Assembly (NCBI RefSeq): GCF_001261775.1
Contig: NZ_LN868537.1
Coordinates: 682,001-746,000, forward strand
Length of the DNA stretch: 64,000 nt
Direction: 5' to 3'
DNA from: Anaeromassilibacillus senegalensis
Lineage (GTDB): Bacteria; Bacillota; Clostridia; Oscillospirales; Acutalibacteraceae
A program made the translations under genes and the position numbers. Each line of letters starts with the position of its first letter. The stretch's first letter is position 1. Below are positions 18,140 to 31,954 of this stretch, piece after piece. Below the pieces are notes generated by a model that was not told the origin of the DNA, searched no databases, and worked only from the letters and a program-made list of their open reading frames with translations.

Positions 18140-18326
18140 GACTTCTATTTCGTTTTAAATGGTAATTATATGTATTTTTTAATTCTCTTTTGTTGTTGAT
18201 TTTTGCAAAATGACACGCACTTTATCCGCATTATCTAAAACTTTTGTAGCTAAAATGTAGCCAGCGATTTTCATTCACCTCAACACCTACAAGCCACTGG
18301 ATACGATTAAAGTAGATAAATAGCTT
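18140..18326 (+). other. Coding debris at the left end of the island
   Basis: Short broken rightward frames are seen, for example one ending H-L-N-T-Y-K-P-L-D-T-I-K-V-D-K-stop at about 18320, directly before a terminator. This is where an integrase gene would be expected, but the remnant is too short to identify. Confidence 0.3.
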
Positions 18327-18364
18327 AACAAATAGCATCTCTTTTGAGGTGCTATTTGTTTTTG
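18327..18364 (+). terminator. Terminator ahead of the restriction locus
   Basis: AACAAATAGCATCTC pairs with GAGGTGCTATTTGTT around TTTT and is followed by a T run; it would insulate the restriction genes from upstream transcription. Confidence 0.75.
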
Positions 18365-18422
18365 CCTAATTCTCTTTATCATCATCAAATTGTGCGAAAT
18401 CCCTATTTTTTAGTGCAATTTA

Positions 18423-18431
18423 TGCTATAAT
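18423..18431 (+). promoter_or_regulatory. Extended -10 promoter of the restriction locus
   Basis: TGC-TATAAT lies 20 bases ahead of the GGAGGG ribosome site of the HTH gene; no good -35 is seen, as is normal with the TGN extension. Confidence 0.55.
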
Positions 18432-18458
18432 ATATTTTTAAGAAACGGAGGGTTTTAT

Positions 18459-18650
18459 ATGAGTGAACTATCAAAACCGGAACCATGGGTAAACACAAAA
18501 GAAATCGCCGAGCACATGGGTGTCACTGTGGAAACTGTTCGTAAGTGGATTAAGCTTGAAAAAATACCTTGCCACCGCATCGGTAAGCTTTGGAAGTTTA
18601 AAGTCAGCGAGGTTGACGAGTGGGTGACAAGCGGACAGGCAACCGAGTAG
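18459..18650 (+). CDS. MerR/excisionase-type helix-turn-helix protein
   Basis: A 63-residue DNA-binding protein of the HTH_17/excisionase class: VNTKEIAEHMGVTVETVRKW is the helix-turn-helix and the wing carries PCHRIGKLWKF. Such proteins often sit directly ahead of hsdM, probably acting as controllers of restriction-modification expression; others act as excisionases of mobile elements. Here it is first in the locus, 130 bp ahead of hsdM on the same strand, behind its own promoter and GGAGGG. Either role fits the context. Confidence 0.8.
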   Translation: MSELSKPEPWVNTKEIAEHMGVTVETVRKWIKLEKIPCHRIGKLWKFKVSEVDEWVTSGQATE

Positions 18651-18780: not shown

Positions 18781-20328
18781 ATGTCAAGTGCAGCACAGAG
18801 AGCCGAACTGCAATCTAAAATATGGAAAATAGCCAATGATGTTCGTGGCTCCGTAGATGGATGGGATTTTAAGCAATATGTTTTAGGAACACTTTTTTAT
18901 CGTTTTATCAGCGAAAATTTTTCTAACTACATCGAAGGCGGCGATGAGAGCGTTAAGTATGCAGAGCTTGACGATAGCATCATCACCAAAGAAATTAAAG
19001 AGGATGCTATCAAGACGAAGGGTTATTTTATCTACCCCAGTCAGCTGTTTGCCAACATTGCTAAAAACGCAAATACCAATGACAGCTTAAATACCGAATT
19101 GAAAGCAATCTTTGATACCATTGAAAGTTCAGCCAACGGATATCCTTCGGAACTGGATATCAAAGGCTTATTTGCCGATTTCGATACCACCAGCAACCGC
19201 TTGGGAAATACAGTCAAAGACAAAAACAGTCGTTTAGCCGCTGTTATAAAAGGCGTGGAAGAGCTGGATTTTGGCAAGTTTGAGGATAACCAAATTGATC
19301 TCTTCGGTGATGCCTATGAATTTTTGATCTCCAATTATGCTGCCAATGCGGGCAAGTCAGGGGGAGAATTTTTCACGCCTCAAAGCGTTTCAAAGCTGAT
19401 TGCAAAGCTGGCCATCCACAAGCAGACAACGATCAACAAGATTTACGACCCTGCTGCCGGTTCTGGCTCGCTGCTGTTGCAAGCAAAAAAGCAATTTGAT
19501 GCTCACATTATTGAAGACGGCTTCTTTGGACAGGAAATCAATCACACAACCTATAACCTTGCCCGCATGAATATGTTTTTGCATAATGTTAACTATGATA
19601 AATTCAATATTGCACTGGGCAACACTTTGACAGACCCTCAGTTTGGCAGCGACAAGCCCTTTGATGCCATTGTGTCCAACCCGCCATATTCCATCAACTG
19701 GATTGGCAGTGATGACCCAACCCTCATTAACGATGACCGCTTTGCCCCTGCCGGTGTTCTTGCACCAAAGTCGAAAGCGGACTTTGCCTTTGTGCTCCAT
19801 AGCCTGAGCTATCTTTCCGGCAAAGGGCGGGCGGCTATCGTCTGCTTCCCTGGTATCTTTTACCGTGGTGGTGCAGAGCAGAAAATCAGACAGTATCTCA
19901 TTGACAACAACTTTGTGGAAACGGTTATCTCGCTGGCTCCAAACCTTTTTTACGGCACCTCTATTGCTGTTAATATCTTGGTTTTGTCCAAACACAAGAG
20001 CGACACAAAAGTGCAATTCATTGATGCCAGCGGTGAAGACTTTTATAAAAAAGAGACCAATAACAATGTGCTGACAGAAGACCATATTGAAAAAATCCTC
20101 ACGCTGTTTGACCGAAAGGAAGACATTGACTATGTAGCAAAGTCTGTGGATAAGGATAAAATTGCGGAAGAAAATTACAATCTTTCCGTAAGCTCTTATG
20201 TAGAGGCTAAAGACACCAGAGAAGTCATTGATATCAATGTGCTGAACGCAGAAATTAAAACAACCGTTGCAAAAATTGATAGGCTTCGTGCTGAGATCGA
20301 TGAGATCATTGCGGAAATCGAGGTGTGA
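18781..20328 (+). CDS. hsdM: Type I restriction-modification system, DNA methyltransferase subunit
   Basis: A 515-residue N6-adenine methyltransferase, modification subunit of a type I system. The N-terminal helical HsdM domain (about 8-150) precedes a gamma-class catalytic domain: SAM motif I DPAAGSGS at 223-230 and catalytic NPPY at 300-303. The C-terminal coiled coil (about 470-515) ends in [14 protein letters not shown] and would contact HsdS. GGAGG lies 7 bases ahead of the ATG. Its stop overlaps the GTG/ATG start region of hsdS, so translation is coupled. The overall layout resembles type IC (EcoR124I-like) HsdM. Confidence 0.96.
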
Positions 20329-20330
20329 GC

Positions 20331-21521
20331 ATGAGTAGATTAGATGAGCTGATAAAGGAACTTTGTCCAGATGGAGTGGAGTGTGCTCCACTTGAAGAAT
20401 GCTGTAATATCTTAGATAGACAGCGTAAGCCTGTTACAAAGTCAGCGAGAGAAATAGGCCAATACCCTTATTATGGTGCAAATGGAATTCAAGACTATGT
20501 TTCGGAGTATATTTTTGACGGTACATTTGTTTTAGTTGGTGAAGATGGTAGCGTCATAACTAAAAATGGTAATCCAGTTGTCACATGGGCTAAAGGGAAA
20601 ATATGGGTCAATAATCATGCTCATATTATTGAAGAAAGGGATGGAGTTTTATTAAGATACTTGTACCACTTTATCCAGACAGTTGATGTTACACCATTGA
20701 TTCATGGCAACATTCCCAAACTTACAGGTGGCGACTTTAAAGCAATCCTAATCCCCCTCCCCCCTCTCCCTGTGCAAGAGGAAATTATCCGCATATTAGA
20801 CAATTTCACGGAGCTTACAGCGGAGCTTACAGCGGAGCTTACAGCGAGAAAAAAACAGTATGAATATTATAGGGATAGTTTGCTGTTGCGGAACAACAAC
20901 ATTTCTATGGTTCCATTAAAAACCGTAGTAAAGAGAAGCTGTTCGGGAGGAACTCCCACAAAAGGAAATAGCTCGTACTATGATAATGGGGATATTCCTT
21001 GGTTACGTACCCAAGATGTGAAGTTTAATGAAATATATGAAATAGATAGCTTTATAACAGAAGAAGCGGTAGCAAAAACATCTGCCAAATGGATCCCCTC
21101 TAACTGCGTTATTATAGCTATTTCAGGAGCAACGGCTGGACGATGTGCAATTAATAAAATACCTACAACCACCAATCAGCACTGCCTAAACTTGGAGATT
21201 GACGATTCAAAAGCTCTATATAAATATGTTTTCTATTGCGTTTATAGTCAATACGAGGAATTGATTTCAAAAAAACAAGGGGCAAGAGGTGACTTAAACT
21301 CATCGTTGGTATTGAGTCTTGATATCCCTATTCCATACCCAAACGATGTAGAAAAATCACTTGCCGAGCAACAACGCATTGTCGACATCCTTGACCGCTT
21401 CGATACTCTTTGCAACGACATTTCAAGCGGTCTGCCCGCCGAGATAAAGGCAAGGCAGCAACAATATGAATACTACCGTGATAAGCTGCTTGCCTTTCCA
21501 AAGGCTGAATTAGAGGTGTAG
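20331..21521 (+). CDS. hsdS: Type I restriction-modification system, specificity subunit with TAEL repeat
   Basis: A 396-residue specificity subunit with two target-recognition domains (about 15-150 and 205-345), each followed by a conserved helix. The helices contain near-identical [14 protein letters not shown] and [14 protein letters not shown], showing the internal duplication. The central helix contains ELTA repeated three times, exactly the feature that sets the length of the non-specific spacer in EcoR124-type enzymes. The start is ATG 20331 behind GAGGTG; a GTG two codons upstream overlaps the hsdM stop. The recognition sequence cannot be deduced by eye. Confidence 0.95.
20811..20846 (+). 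repeat. Three perfect 12-bp tandem repeats in hsdS (Thr-Ala-Glu-Leu)
   Basis: GAGCTTACAGCG occurs three times in direct succession, in frame, in the central conserved helix of HsdS. Slippage by whole units would keep the frame and change the distance between the two half-sites recognised. Confidence 0.95.
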
Positions 21522-21522
21522 T

Positions 21523-22740
21523 ATGGGAAAAAGTTTAAATGAAATCGCACAAGAGCTAAAAAACAATAATAAAAAGGTACAGCTAATTTACGCCTTCAAT
21601 GGAACCGGCAAAACAAGACTCTCCAAAGAGTTTAAAGAATTAGTTGCGCCTAAAGGCGATGTAGAAATCGAGGATACAGGATTAGCGAACAAGAAAATTA
21701 TTTACTATAATGCCTTTACTGAGGATTTGTTTTACTGGGACAATGATTTAGTGAATGATACTGAGCCGAAGCTTAAAATACAACCAAATGTTTTTACGCA
21801 CTGGGTCTTTGTAGACCAAGGACAAGAGTTAAACATCAGCAAAAATTTTCAATATTATACAGATGAAAAATTAACACCTCACCTTAATGCACAATATACT
21901 ACTAAAAATGATGGAGGAAAAGATTTTATAGTACCAGCCTTTTCAGAAGTTACGTTTTCCTATGAGCGTGGCAATGAAGATTTTTCAGAAAACATTAAAA
22001 TATCAAAAGGTGAAGAAAGCTGTTTTATCTGGAGTGTTTTTTATTCACTGCTTAAACAAGTGGTGGAAGTTCTTAATATTGATAAGGATAGTATAGACCA
22101 AGAACGGGAAACAGATAGTTTTGATAATTTGGAATATGTATTTATTGATGACCCCGTGACTTCATTAGATGAAAATCACTTAATTGAATTTGCAGTGGAT
22201 TTAGCTGAAATAATCAAGGAAAGTATATCTGACTTGAAATTTATTATCACTACGCATAACCCTCTTTTTTACAATGTGCTTAGCAATGAATTTAATAATA
22301 ATAATAAAAAAACAGGTTATAATCCTAACAAGCATTTTAAGAAGCTCTGTCTGACAAAGACTGAAGACTCCACTTATGAAATAAACAGCTCCAATGACTC
22401 ACCATTTTCTTATCACCTGTTTTTATTAAATGAAATTCAAAAAGCCGTTGAAACTGGGCAAATATACAAATATCATTTCAATTTTATGCGTAATATTTTA
22501 GAAAAGACATCAACCTTCTTAGGGTATGATGTTTGGGGCGATTTGCTATCCCCTGTCAAAGGTGATAAAGAAGCGTACATAAAAAGAATCCTAAACTTGT
22601 CAAGTCATTCAAAACACTCAGCTGAAGAAATTGTTATGATTACAGACGATGACAAGCGAGCACTAACAAATCTTGTTAAGGAAATTTCAGCAATATACAG
22701 ATTTAACGGCAAGCAAAATAAATACGGTGAGGAGGTTTGA
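21523..22740 (+). CDS. PrrC-like anticodon nuclease candidate (ABC-type ATPase)
   Basis: A 405-residue protein between hsdS and hsdR, with one base between it and the hsdS stop. The N-terminal part is an AAA_13/ABC-like ATPase: Walker A NGTGKT (26-31), signature-like ISKGEES (160-166), Walker B and D-loop [11 protein letters not shown] (206-216) and switch His245 in TTHNP. The C-terminal part has Arg323-x3-Glu327 (RNILE) and Ser-His362 (SSHS). PrrC of E. coli, also about 400 residues and also between hsdS and hsdR of a type IC system, uses Arg320-Glu324-His356 to cut tRNA-Lys. I infer a latent anticodon nuclease silenced by the restriction complex. Function is unproven; an unrelated SMC-like defence ATPase is the alternative. 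The gene is strikingly A/T-rich. Confidence 0.75.
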
Positions 22741-22742
22741 AA

Positions 22743-25700
22743 ATGTCCGAGTTTAACATAATCGCTGAATCTAACAACTTTATCGTTTTAGATAAATATA
22801 CAAAGATTGAGCAGCAAGGTGCCAGCTACCAAACCGAAGCGGATTTAGAGCGTGAGCTCATTGCCGATTTGGTGAACCAAGGCTACGACCATCTACCAAA
22901 GCTCACGACCCCAAAGGCAATGCTTGAAAATGTCCGGGTGCAACTGCAACTGCTGAACAAGATGGAGTTTTCGGATGACGAGTGGAAGCGTTTTTGTGAG
23001 GAGTACTTAGATAAACCAATTGACAGCCACATCGACAAGACACGCAAAATTCATAACGATTATATCTACGACTTTGTTTTTGACGATGGACATATCCAAA
23101 ACATTTATCTGGTGGACAAAAAGGATATCGCAAAAAATAAGCTGCAAGTCATTTCACAATTTGAACAAACCGGAACCCACGCCAACCGATATGATGTTAC
23201 CATTTTAGTCAATGGGCTTCCGTTGGTTCAAGTTGAGCTAAAAAAACGTGGAATTGCAATCAAAGAAGCGTTCAACCAAGTAAATAGATATAGCAAGGAG
23301 AGTTTTAATTCGGAAAACTCTCTGTTTAAGTATCTGCAACTCTTTGTTATCTCCAATGGAACCGATAGCCGCTATTTTGCAAACACGACAAAGCGAGATA
23401 AAAACAGCTTTGATTTTACGATGAACTGGGCAAAGTCAGACAATGCACTGATTAAAGATTTGAAGGATTTTACGGCAACATTCTTTCAAAAAAACACATT
23501 GCTCAGTGTGCTTCTGCTATACTCTGTTTTTGACAGCAGCGACAATCTGCTCATCATGCGCCCTTATCAGATTGCCGCAACAGAACGAATTTTGTGGAAG
23601 ATTAAAAGCTCCTACTACGCTAAGAAATGGCGCACCACGGAAAGCGGCGGATACATTTGGCATACCACCGGCAGCGGAAAAACACTGACAAGCTTTAAAG
23701 CCGCACGCCTTGCCACCGAGCTGGATTTTATCGACAAAGTGTTCTTTGTTGTGGACAGAAAAGACTTGGACTATCAGACGATGAAAGAGTATCAGCGTTT
23801 TTCTCCCGACAGCGTAAACGGCTCTGAAAACACCGCTGGGTTAAAGCGCAACATTGAAAAAGATGACAATAAAATCATTGTGACTACCATTCAAAAGCTG
23901 AATCATCTGATGAAAAGCGAAGCGGATTTGCCTATTTATAACAAGCAGGTCGTTTTCATTTTTGACGAAGCACATCGCTCACAGTTTGGCGAAGCGCAAA
24001 AAAATATTCACAAGAAGTTCAAACAGTATTACCAGTTTGGGTTCACCGGCACCCCCATCTTCCCCGAAAATGCTCTTGGCGCCGAAACCACGGCTTCTGT
24101 GTTTGGGCGTGAATTGCACTCCTATGTTATCACTGATGCCATCAGAGATGAAAAAGTGCTTAAGTTTAAGGTTGATTATAACGATGTTCGCCCCAAGTTC
24201 AAATCAATTGAAATGGAGCAGGACGAGAAAAAGCTGACTGCTGCCGAAACAAAAGAGGCACTGCTGCACCCTGAAAGAATCAAAGAGATTTCACAGTATA
24301 TTTTGAATAATTTTAGGGTGAAAACACATCGTTCCCATGCAGGGGCAAAAGGGTTCAATGCCATGTTCGCTGTAAGCAGCGTTGATGCGGCAAAGCTCTA
24401 CTACGAGGCACTGAATGACTTGCAAAAGGAAAGCGAAAAACCTCTCAGAATTGCAACGATTTTTTCTTTTGCGGCCAACGAAGAACAAAATGCCATTGGT
24501 GAAATTGTTGACGAAACATTTGAACCCACCGCTATGGATAGCAGTGCAAAAGAGTTCCTAACTTACGCTATTAGCAATTATAATACTATGTTCAAAACGA
24601 ACTTCGGCGTGGAAAGCAAGGAGTTTCAAAATTATTATCGTGACCTTGCAAACCGTGTAAGAAAACAGGAAATTGATCTTTTAATTGTGGTTGGAATGTT
24701 TTTGACGGGCTTTGATGCACCAACTCTAAACACGCTCTTTGTTGATAAAAACCTTCGTTACCACGGTTTGATTCAAGCATTTTCAAGAACGAACCGTATT
24801 TATGATTCCACAAAGACCTTTGGAAATATTGTTACTTTCCGAGATTTGGAGAAAGCTACCGTTGATGCCATCACTCTTTTTGGCGATACCAATACTAAAA
24901 ATGTTGTGCTTGAGAAGAGCTATAACGAATATATGCAAGGCTTTACCGACATTGCTACCGGCGAAGCCCGTCGTGGCTATGTGGAACTGGTAAAAGAGTT
25001 AAATGAACGCTTTCCTAATGTCGACGAAATCGTAACAGAGAAGGATAAAAAAGATTTTTCCAAGTTATTTGGTGAGTATTTGCGAGTTGAAAATATCCTT
25101 CAAAACTATGATGAGTTTGCGAGCTTGAAAGCATTACAGTCGGTTGATTTGCATGACCCTCAAGCCGTTGAAGCGTTCAAGTCTGCCCACTATGTAAGCG
25201 ATGAGGAAATTGCAGCTATGCAAGAAATCGCCGTGCCGGAAGAAAGAATTATTCAAGATTATCGTTCTACCTATAATGATATTCGTGATTGGCTCCGCAA
25301 AGAAGGTGCTGGTAAGGAAAAAGAGGCATCCTCGATTGACTGGGATGATGTTGTCTTTGAGGTTGACCTCTTAAAATCACAAGAGATAAATCTGGATTAT
25401 ATTCTCGAACTCATCTTTGAGAAAAATAAAAAGCTGCAAAATAAAGAAACCTTGGTTGATGATGTGCGTCGTCTCATCCGTTCAAGTGTAGGCAATCGTG
25501 CAAAAGAAAGTTTGGTGGTTGATTTTATCAATCAAACAGATTTAGATAAAATCGAAGATAAGGCAAGTATCATAGATGCCTTTTTTTCGTTTGCTCAAGC
25601 TGAGCAATTAAGAGAAGCGGAAGAATTGATTCATGCTGAAGAGCTCAACCAAGATGCTGCAAGGCGCTACATCCTCACATCGTTGAAGAAGGAGTACGCC

Positions 25701-25841
25701 AGTGAAAACGGAACAGAACTCAATGAAGTTTTGCCTAAAATGAGCCCGCTGAACCCTAAGTATTTAACGAAAAAGCAAACCGTATTTCAGAAAATAGCTG
25801 CCTTTGTCGAAAAGTTTAAAGGTGTGGGCGGCTCGATATAG
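22743..25841 (+). CDS. hsdR: Type I restriction endonuclease, R (translocase/nuclease) subunit
   Basis: A 1032-residue motor subunit. The nuclease motif is Asp151...Glu165-x-Lys167 (VELK). The SF2 translocase has Walker A HTTGSGKT (Lys313), DEAH at 408-411, FTGTPIF, and a C-terminal helicase half with [20 protein letters not shown] and QAFSRTNR. By count these positions coincide with those I recall for EcoR124I HsdR (D151, E165, K167, K313), which supports type IC. The start is ATG 22743, behind GAGGAGG with 7-nt spacing, 2 bases after the preceding stop. It cleaves unmethylated DNA far from the recognition site after ATP-driven translocation. All motifs are intact. Confidence 0.96.
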
Positions 25842-26041: not shown

Positions 26042-27448
26042 TTATCGTTCATCCTGCGACATGAGTTTTGTCGTTTTTGTTGGCTGCTGCACATTCAAAA
26101 TCCAATCAATATTATGCTTCGCCATCTGCAAATCCACCATCTCCTGCCGAGCCTGTTTGTACTCAGCATAGAGTTTGTTTTTTGTGAAGACAGTGTATCA
26201 TATTCCGTTTTTTGTGCATCCATAGACGGCAACTTTTCCAGCCCAAGCTTATCAAATTCTTGCTTGGCAGTCTTATGTAATAGTAGGTCAGATTCATGTG
26301 CTGCCAAAAACTTTTTGCTATATCCCGACTGCCGATACTGCACATAAATATCACGGGTTTTGCGATAGGTGTCAATGCTCTTTTGCAGGCTGGTAATTTC
26401 AGAAAGTCGCTTTTCATTCGCCTTAATTTTATCCGAAAGCATATCAAACCGCCGCCCTGCCTCCTCCTCCTTTGCAGATAAAACCTCGTAATCATCCAAT
26501 CCATTTTCCTGCAAATAAATCAGAGTTTTTGCAGCCTCTTTGAGATTAAAAGTCTTTGCCCACTTTTCATATCCGAACCTTTGCCTTGTTGTATCTTCGC
26601 TTCAATGTCAATAAGCATGTTCGGCTTTTTACCGGCAGGAGAAAGAGCCTTTTTCTTCGCCATAGGTTTTACAATCTGCTCACACTCAAGCCGTTTTAAA
26701 AGTTCGTGTACTGTATAATTCTCACCCAAAGAATCCAGGCGGATAAACCGCTTTCCCTGCGGCAGCTTCACCGCTAAGTGTGCCTTGTGCTTTACTTCGC
26801 AACCAGCTTTACGTAGAGCATCCTTTAATTCCTCTAAGGTCAAACTTTGTTCAAGGTTTGCATCAATCAGCTCTGCTAAACTCTCCCGAAGCGTAGGCTG
26901 TTTTTCATCACCAATCCATGTGCCATAACTGCCACGGCTCTGCTTTGGCTTCTCAATAATGGACAGCCCATTTTCTGCACATAGCCTATCTGAAATCTTT
27001 CGAATGGCAAAGCTGAATCCCCAGAAGTTGCGAAACTTTTTGGTGTAATCCAGCGCAGTAGAATTAAAGATAATGTGCGAGTGGACATGAGACTTGTCCA
27101 CATGAGTACAAACCAGAAAAGCGTGTTTTCCCTTGGTCAGCGACATAGCAAGATCATAGCAAATCTTGTTGGCGGTGGCAGGGTCAATCTCGCCGGTCTC
27201 AAAGCTCTGCCGCAAGTGGTAGGCAATAATATTACGCTCCCCTTGGTCTCTGCCGGTGAGCTGTGCATATTGCCGCTTGGATAGCAAAAACTCCTAATCC
27301 GCCATCATAGGGTCGCATTCATAAGAGGAATTCCATTCACCATCATCAGTCTTTTCTGGATTTTCTACATAATCCGTAGACTTGCCCAGTGCCGTTGCCA
27401 CACTTCGCCCTTTGCCAGTGTGCAGGGGCATTATCTTGTTGTTGCCAT
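26042..27448 (-). pseudogene. Broken MobA/VirD2-type relaxase
   Basis: The translated pieces give a relaxase that once nicked the transfer origin of a mobilisable element: MPLHTGKGRSVATALGKSTDYV at the N-terminus, the metal-binding HVDKSHVHSHIIFN block, and a long coiled C-terminus. At least four lesions are visible. A base is missing between ATGGCAACAACAAGA and the codons for MPLHTG (about 27433). TAG replaces a codon, probably CAG, at 27294-27296. A base is lost near 26575, before the codons for YEKWAKTFN. A further shift occurs near 26183, before those for AEYKQARQEM. The frame then runs to the natural stop at 26042. The gene is leftward, convergent with hsdR. Confidence 0.85.
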
Positions 27449-27960: not shown

Positions 27961-28793
27961 TGAAGTATCGTGTCATTGAACGATTCCGTAGGAAATTTCT
28001 CATTGAAGCCATGTGCCGTTTATTTTAAGTATCTCGCAGCGGTTATTACGATTAGCGAAAACGACAAGGCAAGCCCGCAAGAGATCAATGGCTCATGGAA
28101 CTCATTCTTGACTGTCAGCAGCGCTGCAAACAAACCTACGGCGTTGGATTCAGCGCCATACCGGCAAGAATGTCAATTTGAAAGCCATTTTGCGCATCAT
28201 GCGTAAATTCGACTTGCTTTGCTCAGATACGCCGCCGCAAGCTCTATACGCACTACAAACAGGCGGTACACAAATACCCGAATCTGCTGAGGAGAGCTTT
28301 CAACCAGCCATTACCCAACCAATTCTGCGTGACCGATATTATTACTTACATCTCTATGGCTAAGGGAATTCTGTATCTATATGCCGTGATTGATCTGTGC
28401 GGTAAATTGGTCCTGGCCTACTGCGTCGGCAGCGACATGACTGCCTCACTTGTTACGGACACCATACGCGACGTATGGCAAAAAGAAAAGGTCGCTGATG
28501 GACTTTCCCTCCACAGCGACCAAGGGTCTCAATACACCTCACAAGCATACTTTGACCTAAGTCAAGAATATCACTTTCGCCCCTCAATGTCCAGCCCTGG
28601 ATGCCCCTATGGCAACACCGCCATGGAAAATTTCTTCGGTACGCTCAAGACCGAGTGTCTGTACCGCATGAAGTTTTCCTGCCGTTCTGAGGTCAAACAG
28701 GCCGTTGCCGAATACGTTCAGTTCTACAATTTTGAGCGCATCAATTTGATAAGCGGCCTCACTCCGTTTGAAATCTGGAGCAAGGCCGCGTAA
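27961..28793 (+). pseudogene. Broken IS3-family transposase OrfB (DDE integrase)
   Basis: The translation begins KYRVIERFRRKFLIEAMCRLF, then hits TAA (28026-28028) and TAG (28052-28054) in frame. Further frame changes occur before the catalytic core resumes. The core is recognisable from DRYYYLHLYG/VTDI through LHSDQGSQYTS to GNTAMENFFGTLKTE and FYNFERINL, ending IWSKAA. Two stops plus shifts make it inactive. Confidence 0.85.
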
Positions 28794-29001: not shown

Positions 29002-30306
29002 TCATTCCCACTCAATGGTGGCCGTAGGCTTTGGAGAAAGATCGTAGCAAACGCGATTGACCCCCTTGACCTCTTTCAATATCCGGTTTGTGATCTTCTG
29101 CAATACCGGCCAGTCGATGGTCTCAATGGTCGCCGTCATGGCATCGATGGTGTTAACCGCACGGATAATGACCGGGTATTCAAAACAGCGGGCACTGTCG
29201 CGGACACCAACCGATTTAAAATCCGGAACAACCGTGAAATACTGCCAGACCTTCTTGTCCAGCCCTGCAATATGGAACTCTTCCCGCAAAATGGCGTCTG
29301 ACTCCCGTACTGCCTCCAAGCGATCCCTGGTGATCGCACCCAAACAGCGCACACCCAAGCCGGGACCCGGGAACGGCTGCCGATACACCATCTCCGCCGG
29401 TAAGCCAAGCTCTACGCCGCAGGCACGCACTTCGTCTTTAAACAGCTGACGAAGCGGCTCAACCAGCTCAAATTTGAGGTCTTCCGGCAGACCGCCCACA
29501 TTGTGGTGAGATTTCACCATTTTGGCGGTTTTGGTTCCACTCTCAACAATATCCGGGTAGATGGTTCCCTGCGCCAGGAAATCGATTCCCTCCAGCTTGC
29601 GTGCTTCTTCTTCGAACACACGGATAAACTCCGCACCGATGATCTTACGCTTTTGCTCAGGATCAGCAACATCCGCCAGCTTGGAGAGAAAACGCTCAGA
29701 AGCGTCTACATATACCAGGTTGGCATTTAGCTGATTGCGGAAAACAGAAACAACCTGTTCCGGCTCTCCTTTTCTCAGCAAGCCGTGATTGACATGGACA
29801 CAGGTGAGCTGCTCCCCGATCGCTTTCAGCAATAGTGCTGCGACAACGGAGCTGTCCACACCGCCGGAAAGCGCAAGCAGCACCTTTCGGTCCCCCACCT
29901 GACGGCGGACCAGCTCGATCTGATCGGCGATAAAGTTTTTCATATTCCAGTTGGCTTCTGCTTTACAGATGTCAAACACAAAGGGCTTTAGCGCATCGCA
30001 GAGCGATGCTTCATCCTCCGGAAGCTTGTCCATCATTTGTTCGGCTTTACCGTTGTGTGCAATGGAGAGAATCGGCAGACCGCAACCGTAAAGCTCCTCC
30101 AATACATCGATCTGCATGCCGTCCACCACATTGTTCGGGCCGCCGTTTAAAATAATACCCTTGGCATTTGGCAGTGCCTTGAGTTCACTCGCGGTCATAT
30201 CATGGGGATAAATTTCACTGTACACGCCAAGACTGCGAATCGCACGTGCTACCGTCGTATTTTCCGTACTACCAAGGTCCAAAATAACAATCATATCCTG
30301 TTTCAT
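29002..30306 (-). CDS. GMP synthase paralogue with degenerate glutaminase domain
   Basis: A 434-residue protein. The C-terminal 310 residues are a normal GuaA synthetase: PP-loop SGGVDSS at 147-153, [23 protein letters not shown] and the C-terminal TIEWE. The N-terminal glutamine amidotransferase part is shortened to about 95 residues, and the nucleophile motif P-V-L-G-I-C-Y-G-x-Q reads P-I-L-S-I-A-H-N-G-K, with Ala83 for Cys and no His/Glu block. It could aminate XMP only with free ammonia, or with a partner glutaminase such as the full GuaA next to it. The start is ATG 30306, behind GGAAGGAGA; nine more in-frame codons upstream are unlikely. Its last codons host the island attachment site. 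Confidence 0.85.
   Translation of the reverse strand: MKQDMIVILDLGSTENTTVARAIRSLGVYSEIYPHDMTASELKALPNAKGIILNGGPNNVVDGMQIDVLEELYGCGLPILSIAHNGKAEQMMDKLPEDEASLCDALKPFVFDICKAEANWNMKNFIADQIELVRRQVGDRKVLLALSGGVDSSVVAALLLKAIGEQLTCVHVNHGLLRKGEPEQVVSVFRNQLNANLVYVDASERFLSKLADVADPEQKRKIIGAEFIRVFEEEARKLEGIDFLAQGTIYPDIVESGTKTAKMVKSHHNVGGLPEDLKFELVEPLRQLFKDEVRACGVELGLPAEMVYRQPFPGPGLGVRCLGAITRDRLEAVRESDAILREEFHIAGLDKKVWQYFTVVPDFKSVGVRDSARCFEYPVIIRAVNTIDAMTATIETIDWPVLQKITNRILKEVKGVNRVCYDLSPKPTATIEWE
29004..29013. other. Right attachment site (attR) inside the guaA C-terminal codons
   Basis: ATTCCCACTC, on the minus strand encoding the final E-W-E of GuaA, repeats the left boundary at 18130-18139. Confidence 0.6.
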
Positions 30307-30342
30307 CTGGTCTCCTTCCTGCTCCGCGCACATGATTCCAGT

Positions 30343-30374
30343 ATGTTGGTTCCGTGCGGAGCCACCACCAACAT
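30343..30374 (-). other. Intercistronic hairpin between the two guaA genes
   Basis: ATGTTGG and CCAACAT close an inner GC-rich stem; there is no T run, so it is probably an mRNA-processing or stability element. Confidence 0.45.
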
Positions 30375-30415
30375 CCCATCTATACTGATGCTCTTTACAT
30401 CTCTAATTGAAAATC

Positions 30416-31954
30416 CTACTCCCATTCAATGGTTGCCGGCGGCTTACTCGTGATATCATAAACTACGCGGTTGACATTCTTTACCTCATTAATGATCCGG
30501 CTGCTGGCAGATTCCAACACATCATACGGAATACGCGCCCAATCGGCCGTCATGAAATCCGTGGTAGTCACACCGCGCAGTGCGATGGTATTGTCATAGG
30601 TCCTTCCATCACCCATCACGCCGACGCTCTTAATTCCGGTCAGTACTGCAAAATACTGATTGACTTTGCGATCCCAGCCCGCTTTGGCAATCTCCTCACG
30701 GAAGATCGCGTCCGCATCCTGAAGGATTTCCAGCTTGTCCTTTGTAACGTCGCCCATGATACGGATGCCAAGCCCGGGACCTGGGAACGGCTGCCGCCAC
30801 ACCAGATTTTCCGGAATTCCCAGCTCCAAACCGACCCGGCGCACCTCATCTTTAAAGAGGTCGCGCAGAGGCTCGATGATTCCTTCAAAACCCACGTCCT
30901 CCGGCAATCCGCCGACGTTGTGGTGGCTCTTAATGGTTGCAGCCTCCCCTTCGCCGCTTTCCACCACATCCGGATAAATGGTCCCCTGACAGAGATACTC
31001 GATTCTCCCCAGTTTTCCGGATTCCTCTTCAAACACGCGGATAAACTCTTCTCCAATGATTTTACGCTTTTGTTCCGGTTCCTCCACGCCCTTCAAACGA
31101 TCCAGAAAACGGTCCTGTGCATTGACACGAATCAAATTCATATCAAATTGCTGCCGGAAGACGCGCTCCACCTCATCGCCTTCGTTCTTCCGGAGCATTC
31201 CGTGATCAACGAAGATACAGGTCAGGTTTTTCCCGACCGCCTTGTGTACCAGCACAGCCGCCACGGAGGAATCCACGCCGCCGGAAAGCGCACAGAGAAC
31301 TCGCTTATCTCCAACGGTTTCTTTAATTTGCTGAATTGTCTCCTTGGCAAAGGAAGACATCACCCAATCCTTGGAGCAGCCACAGATATGATAGAGAAAA
31401 TTTTTCAGCATGTCCATTCCATAGACGGAATGTTCCACCTCCGGGTGAAACTGAAACGCATAAAGGCGCCTGCTGTCGTCTGCCATAGCGGCGACCGGAC
31501 ACGCGTCGCTTGTTGCGGCGACTGCAAAGCCGGTTGGAACTGCGGAAATATAGTCCGTATGGCTCATCCAGCAAACCGACTCCTCCGGGACTCCCTGAAA
31601 CAGCGCCGCTTCTCCCTGAACACGCACAGGCGTTTTTCCATACTCGCGAACCTCGGAGCTGCTGACTTCTCCCCCCAGGAGATAGGCCATCAGCTGTGCG
31701 CCGTAGCAAATTCCGAGCACCGGAATTCCCAGGGAAAAAATCTCCTTCTCGCAAACCGGCGCACCCTCCGCATAGACCGAATTGGGGCCACCGGAAAAGA
31801 TCACGCCCTTATACCCCGCGTCCGCGATTTGTTTTGCCGGCGTTTTATAAGACTTAATCTCACAGTACACATTGCAGTCGCGCACTCTGCGCGCAATCAG
31901 CTGGCTGTACTGTCCGCCAAAGTCTAAAATCAGGACTGTTTCATTTTTCAACAT
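30416..31954 (-). CDS. guaA: GMP synthase (glutamine-hydrolysing)
   Basis: A complete 512-residue GuaA converting XMP, ATP and glutamine to GMP. The class I amidotransferase domain has [11 protein letters not shown] with the nucleophilic Cys and [10 protein letters not shown] with His and Glu. The synthetase domain has [30 protein letters not shown] and the TIEWE end. AAGGAGA lies 10 bases ahead of the ATG. It follows glmS in the leftward purine run and is followed by a second, truncated-glutaminase paralogue. Confidence 0.97.

Follow-up and report, generated by a model that had tools for sequence, protein, structure and literature searches.

The window, that is, the whole stretch of 64,000 nucleotides analysed here, carries a prrC gene lodged between hsdS and hsdR in what its profile matches and motifs indicate to be a complete type IC restriction-modification operon. 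The genes and features of the locus, by window position, are the following.

18459..18650, plus strand: gene for a 63-aa helix-turn-helix protein just upstream of hsdM (Pfam HTH_17, E 2e-13)
18781..20328, plus strand: hsdM, type IC methyltransferase subunit, 515 aa (TIGR00497, E 5e-196; EcoR124 HsdM 7bst over residues 1-514)
20325..21521, plus strand: hsdS, specificity subunit, 398 aa (Pfam Methylase_S in two stretches; PADLOC Specificity_I)
20811..20846, plus strand: spacer repeat in hsdS, three perfect 12-bp units GAGCTTACAGCG (from the sequence; coordinates computed from the reading frame)
21523..22740, plus strand: prrC, putative PrrC-family anticodon nuclease, 405 aa (PADLOC PrrC, E 8.6e-139; AAA_13; motifs and triad)
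22360..22737, plus strand: putative C-terminal tRNA-recognition and HEPN-type nuclease part of PrrC, about residues 280-405 (D292, R323, E327, R355, H362)
22743..25841, plus strand, ATG start inferred: hsdR, type IC restriction/translocase subunit (TIGR00348, E 2e-203; EcoR124_C; EcoR124I HsdR 2w00 over residues 7-1034)

The hsd genes and prrC

The prrC frame is intact from its ATG to a stop codon within 21523-22740 and encodes 405 residues, while its reverse complement contained many stops in the one frame read. A sequence-only reading of this DNA had proposed a 405-residue ABC-like ATPase between hsdS and hsdR, and we found it there, on the strand and at the coordinates given. The Walker A motif that it placed at residues 26-31 is present as NGTGKT, and the ABC motif at 206-216 is present as the Walker B/D-loop. 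Beyond that reading, a signature SKGEE at 161-165 and an H-loop histidine, H245, complete the set of ABC-type NTPase motifs. A stretch of 15 residues in the N-domain (61-75) is near-invariant in the aligned relatives and may be the PrrC box. The only Pfam match of the protein was AAA_13; NCBIfam gave no match, a direct sequence search of the PDB returned nothing, and a PDB profile search yielded no more than weak matches to Rad50 (E 0.18 and 0.25).

The reading frames of hsdM, hsdS and hsdR are all open. HsdM and HsdR passed the NCBIfam cut-offs of TIGR00497 and TIGR00348, respectively, and HsdS was identified by Pfam and PADLOC only. HsdR keeps the motifs TTGSGKT, DEAH and ELKK. By sequence the Hsd proteins are of type IC and EcoR124I-like, HsdM and HsdR matching that enzyme over nearly their full length; in contrast to this locus, EcoR124I is described in PMC3014915 as being without an anticodon nuclease. 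The gene junctions are tight and, by eye, preceded by plausible ribosome-binding sites. The hsdS stop lies one base ahead of the prrC ATG. The listed hsdR start, TTG 22737, overlaps prrC; ATG 22743, preceded by GAGGAGG at the prrC end, is the likelier start.

The three hsdS units GAGCTTACAGCG encode ELTA, so that the protein holds two complete TAEL words. The role of such TAEL-type spacer repeats in type IC HsdS proteins is taken from PMC3874165. Two or three tandem TAEL words were located by a pattern search in 42 of 67 HsdS proteins, that of the window included. At the 12-bp repeats (20811-20846) unequal crossing-over could give the recognition sequence a different spacing. Upstream of hsdM, the HTH_17 protein encoded at 18459..18650 is a possible regulator. 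In a comparison of six loci, conserved DNA in this region was found in L012 only, at 18290-18496, a stretch that reaches no more than 38 bases into the HTH_17 gene.

Two pieces of other genes lie beside the operon, a relaxase fragment (26520-27287, minus strand) and part of an IS3-type transposase (28329-28793, plus strand; profile positions 223-358 of 369), and both are mobile-element remnants.

PrrC relatives and their operons

The PADLOC PrrC model matched the window protein with E = 8.6e-139, the next family reaching 1.4e-13, and matched all 71 proteins of our working alignment. A scan of genome contigs revealed 449 stretches encoding relatives. With such a score and so many relatives the prrC frame is not a chance one. 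According to the record titles, the relatives belong to Bacillota, Proteobacteria, Bacteroidetes, Chloroflexi and other groups. PrrC matches were also found in 113 of 72,556 plasmid records and, at E 1e-5, in none of 50,697 phage records. At the DNA level 20 of 5,426 E. coli genomes were matched, in none of them over more than 80% of the gene, and two of the 98 host relatives searched carry PrrC, the host itself counted. By 2008 at the latest, PrrC orthologues linked to type IC systems had been described from distant bacteria; their size range is 341-416 aa (PMC2610378), and the window protein, with 405 residues and no zinc-hook insert, falls inside this range. Judged by its sequence, it is a clear and ordinary member of the known PrrC family. 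PMC2610378, PMC3014915, PMC3710099 and PMC11555353 have already described this family, the way it is linked to the operon and the role presumed for it; the window adds a well-preserved PrrC operon to the known set.

The order hsdM-hsdS-prrC-hsdR that links PrrC to type IC hsd loci is found in the window. For a comparison of gene context we used 86 loci: the window copy, the best 80 of the 449 genome loci and five annotated loci. In this set HsdR lies downstream of PrrC in all 86, within 50 bases in 81 of them; the distance is larger in L024, L051, L074 and L079, where a gene intervenes, and in L018, where HsdR was partly matched. HsdS lies upstream of PrrC in 85 of the 86 loci and HsdM in 79, and six of the seven without HsdM have less than 1.2 kb of upstream DNA. 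One locus, L011 of Neglectibacter timonensis, keeps prrC and hsdR with no hsdM within 6 kb upstream (L011 1-6000); by eye its hsdS looks shortened and stands beside integrase- and resolvase-like genes. The L011 arrangement, a PrrC with no methylase next to it, would allow silencing to be tested in a natural setting.

Among the 67 of these 86 loci with all four genes at full length, PrrC distances correlated with those of HsdR (r 0.74), HsdM (r 0.67) and HsdS (r 0.32), and none of 999 permutations matched any of the three values, although the loci are related and were picked by similarity, so that P values and permutation counts overstate their independence. Based on these distances, PrrC appears to evolve with the shared subunits HsdM and HsdR more than with the target choice of HsdS, as would be expected if PrrC docks on the Hsd complex.

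The presence of prrC in these operons is optional. Two E. coli plasmid loci, both on plasmids that we take to be P1-like, have common upstream neighbours, the same pdcA and Doc/Phd-type genes adjoining hsdM (L083 2776-9865 and L162 2034-8096). L083 contains prrC, whereas in L162 prrC is absent and 121 bp separate hsdS from hsdR; the two are 97% identical on the hsdM side and 92% on the hsdR side. This natural pair lends itself to asking what difference PrrC makes to a nearly identical restriction enzyme. Similarly, prrC is absent from the Lactococcus plasmid locus L161, whose HsdR is 86% identical to that of the window. PrrC was found in 113 plasmid records and HsdR relatives in 1,117, of which 997 reach at least 60% identity, these counts coming from separate searches with different E limits and not being paired by record. 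Among the fetched loci the closest HsdM and HsdR proteins (90-94%) sit in Pectinatus, Neglectibacter and clostridial genomes; the operon was therefore likely acquired horizontally.

The insert is also AT-rich. In the 73 of the 85 other loci that were compared, the window being left out, prrC was AT-richer than its hsdM and hsdR neighbours in 72, L083 being the exception in total GC, and in 66 at third positions. In the window the third-position GC is 0.30 for prrC versus 0.47 and 0.44 for hsdM and hsdR. Such AT-richness may keep prrC expression low.

The slot between hsdS and hsdR also holds other cargo. It is occupied by an annotated RhuM gene alone in L163 (3976-5007), and genes behind PrrC were named by eye as RhuM-like in L079 (7393-8427), Fic-like in L051 (7454-8440), Bro-N-like in L024 (7255-8163) and DUF1016-like in L074 (7182-8327). 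Effectors of type IC systems in general seem to use this slot as a docking place.

The putative nuclease part

For residue comparisons we aligned 88 proteins, those of the window, the best 80 of the 449 genome loci, the five annotated loci and two plasmid loci; all are distinct and they form 79 groups below 95% identity. The E. coli residues D287, R320, E324 and H356 are described in PMC3014915 and PMC2610378. L083, annotated as an E. coli 'anticodon nuclease', has D290, R323, E327 and H359, the published numbers plus 3; on account of this annotation and spacing, and of its recognition peptide, we used it as the E. coli PrrC type, a stand-in for the EcoPrrC reference.

The sequence-only reading had named Arg323-x3-Glu327 and Ser361-His362 in the window protein as a likely PrrC triad. 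Both lie at those positions, and in the alignment R323, E327 and H362 match the triad of the E. coli type and are invariant in the 88 proteins (best 80 of 449, the window and seven added). The ATPase part of the window protein is 63.5% identical to that of L083. The position of D292, which aligns with D290 of L083 and thus with the wobble-base contact D287, is Asp in 87 of the same 88 proteins and Glu in one.

A further pair, R355 and H362, is invariant in all 88 at the exact spacing R355-x6-H362, which has the form Rx4-6H given in PMC3710099 as the motif of catalytic HEPN domains. R355, absent from the earlier list, is thus a further candidate catalytic residue. The alignment supplies concrete residues for mutation, R355 included.

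The predicted structures point in the same direction with less weight. AlphaFold, with an alignment of 71 of the 86 proteins, modelled the whole protein at a mean pLDDT of 75, with Walker A (18-35) and residues 363-369, just behind H362, below 50. For predicted residues ~1-300 the best structural matches were Rad50/SMC heads (best Z 9.2). Predicted residues 292-396 resembled the HEPN protein 2hsb with Z 7.2 (rmsd 3.9, 103 aligned), in a range, below about 13, where helical bundles can be alike by chance. The C-terminal domain modelled alone, at a low-confidence pLDDT of 63, had 1ylm as its best match (Z 7.6, rmsd 3.4, 99 aligned). Seven of its top 12 structural rows (Z 5.9-7.6) have titles naming HEPN or MntA-HpeT; four further rows, 1ylm, 5yep, 1wty and 7bxo, we take to be HEPN-type, and the unrelated protein 2j9w stands among the same 12. 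Foldseek gave no match for this domain below 0.001, the best being 0.45. With a low-confidence domain model, Z values in the chance range, 2j9w among the rows and this empty Foldseek search, the fold comparison is consistent with the published PrrC HEPN assignment, weakly by itself and not conclusively.

Probable target tRNA and interpretation

We looked for the presumed substrate in the host. Its assembly of 12 contigs yielded 44 tRNA genes, all typed, among them one tRNA-Lys gene (UUU), a missed further copy being possible though unlikely. As E. coli reference we used lysT of MG1655. The loop CTTTTAA and the three inner stem pairs of the host tRNA-Lys are equal to those of lysT; the two outer stem pairs are C-G in the host versus G-T and T-A in E. 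coli, and the host anticodon stem is the more stable. A tRNA-Lys search of 47 E. coli genomes gave partial and weak matches only. In the window, an anticodon-arm pattern match at 26544-26554 (minus strand) was rejected as a tRNA, because ARAGORN found none in the stretch and the match lies inside the relaxase frame. According to PMC3014915, E. coli PrrC is inhibited by a stable stem; an enzyme adapted to the host tRNA may therefore be needed. With a single tRNA-Lys gene in the host, cleavage should be easy to read.

The window locus resembles EcoprrI, the E. coli PrrC system (hsdM-hsdS-prrC-hsdR), in gene order, protein size, ABC motifs, the Arg-Glu-His triad, the Asp wobble contact and type IC Hsd partners. 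The window protein and L083 are 55% identical over 369 aligned positions (48% by blastp). The difference lies in the C-terminal nuclease part, with 38% identity, and in a recognition stretch that, in 86 of the 88 proteins (best 80 of 449, the window and seven added), is two residues shorter than KYGDSNKSFSYH of the E. coli type; L083 and L168 have the longer form. The specificity could thus have shifted. The appearance of E. coli PrrC as an outlier in the nuclease part was discounted as due in part to how the rows were selected: 80 of the 86 had been picked for likeness to the window protein.

A second reference is PrrC170 of Klebsiella, also a PrrC in a type I locus and described in PMC11555353 as 35% identical to EcoPrrC, causing growth arrest and targeting tRNA-Lys. 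The locus L167 of K. quasipneumoniae resembles it and keeps the triad and the Asp; its PrrC shares 35.4% identity with L083 and 32.4% with the window protein. Its order is hsdR, a TrlF-family gene, an RNA-binding-domain gene, hsdS, PrrC and hsdM, with two extra genes between hsdR and hsdS, whereas PrrC170 is described as a system of four genes (PMC11555353). L167 fits PrrC170 better, in identity and in having the relative order R-S-PrrC-M, than does L086, a Klebsiella type that we rejected in this role because it is about 56% identical to L083, not 35%. Since this Klebsiella locus resembling PrrC170 (L169 4145-14882) encodes a TrlF-family ATPase and an RNA-binding-domain protein between hsdR and hsdS, PrrC is found in a type I system with a different gene arrangement as well. 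PMC2610378 mentions unpublished results of similar activity for the proteins of Haemophilus influenzae and Streptococcus mutans. The E. coli type and PrrC170, both reported to act on tRNA-Lys, flank the window protein in sequence, and by this analogy tRNA-Lys is the best-supported and likely target.

Taken together, we favour, with a probability of about 0.82, that the locus encodes a latent anticodon nuclease of the PrrC type in a complete type IC operon, which would be silenced by the Hsd proteins, triggered by phage and directed at tRNA-Lys. The integrity of the gene, its family, the catalytic and wobble-contact residues, the operon architecture and the single tRNA-Lys with its loop can be read directly from the DNA; cleavage, target, silencing and trigger we infer from the E. 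coli and Klebsiella relatives. Silencing by Hsd and triggering by phage are known from E. coli PrrC (PMC3014915, PMC2610378). In the resting cell, PrrC would probably be bound, inactive, to the HsdR2M2S complex. A phage product or other stress would compromise the restriction enzyme sitting on unmodified DNA; the ABC-type NTPase domain would then change state and the C-terminal HEPN-type domain be released. Released PrrC would cut tRNA-Lys 5' of the wobble base and stop translation, ending the infection together with cell growth. As one tRNA-Lys gene was found in the genome, such a cut would stop the translation of lysine codons.

The strongest competing explanation is a genuine PrrC nuclease, likewise held silent by Hsd, whose main target is another tRNA recognized through the diverged stretch. 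The low identity of the C-terminal part relative to the ATPase part, the shorter recognition stretch and the stabler stem of the host tRNA-Lys would fit it, and PrrC substrates may vary according to PMC3014915; yet 87 of 88 proteins, the divergent Klebsiella L167 included, retain the equivalent of D287, and the host tRNA-Lys has the loop and inner stem pairs of that of E. coli, so we regard it as unlikely. A wider reading, in which the window protein belongs to a large PrrC class that would have in common with E. coli PrrC the Hsd-facing ATPase part and differ in a diverged nuclease part and in its release by phage factors of its own hosts, seems to us equally unlikely. The target of such a class may be a tRNA-Lys with a stabler stem or other modifications, or another tRNA; if this were true, the sensor coupled to restriction would be partly separable from the effector that cuts tRNA, and that effector would be tunable.

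That prrC is an unexpressed or decaying passenger of a mobile remnant might be suspected from the adjoining relaxase and transposase pieces and from its AT-richness, but it is improbable, as all four genes are open with their motifs kept, the junctions are tight with plausible ribosome-binding sites (by eye), and the same AT-richness relative to the neighbouring genes is seen in 72 of 73 other loci. Least probable of all is that the protein is RloC, or that it is a Rad50-like/AAA_13 ATPase of a general kind, part of the restriction locus and devoid of nuclease function, for which AAA_13 as sole Pfam match and the Rad50/SMC heads over ~residues 1-300 could be invoked: RloC shares the ABC ATPase and an Arg-x3-Glu...His nuclease part but is about twice as long (658-897 aa) with a zinc-hook coiled-coil insert (PMC2610378), whereas the window protein has no such insert, two Cys and no CxxC in 405 aa and is thus not RloC, its catalytic residues are intact, and the PADLOC PrrC model leads the next family by more than 100 orders of magnitude.

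Farther along the window, two adjacent genes on the minus strand (29002-31954) were named by eye as guaA-like, with products of 443 and 512 aa; in the first of them the glutaminase part seems, by eye, to be shortened.
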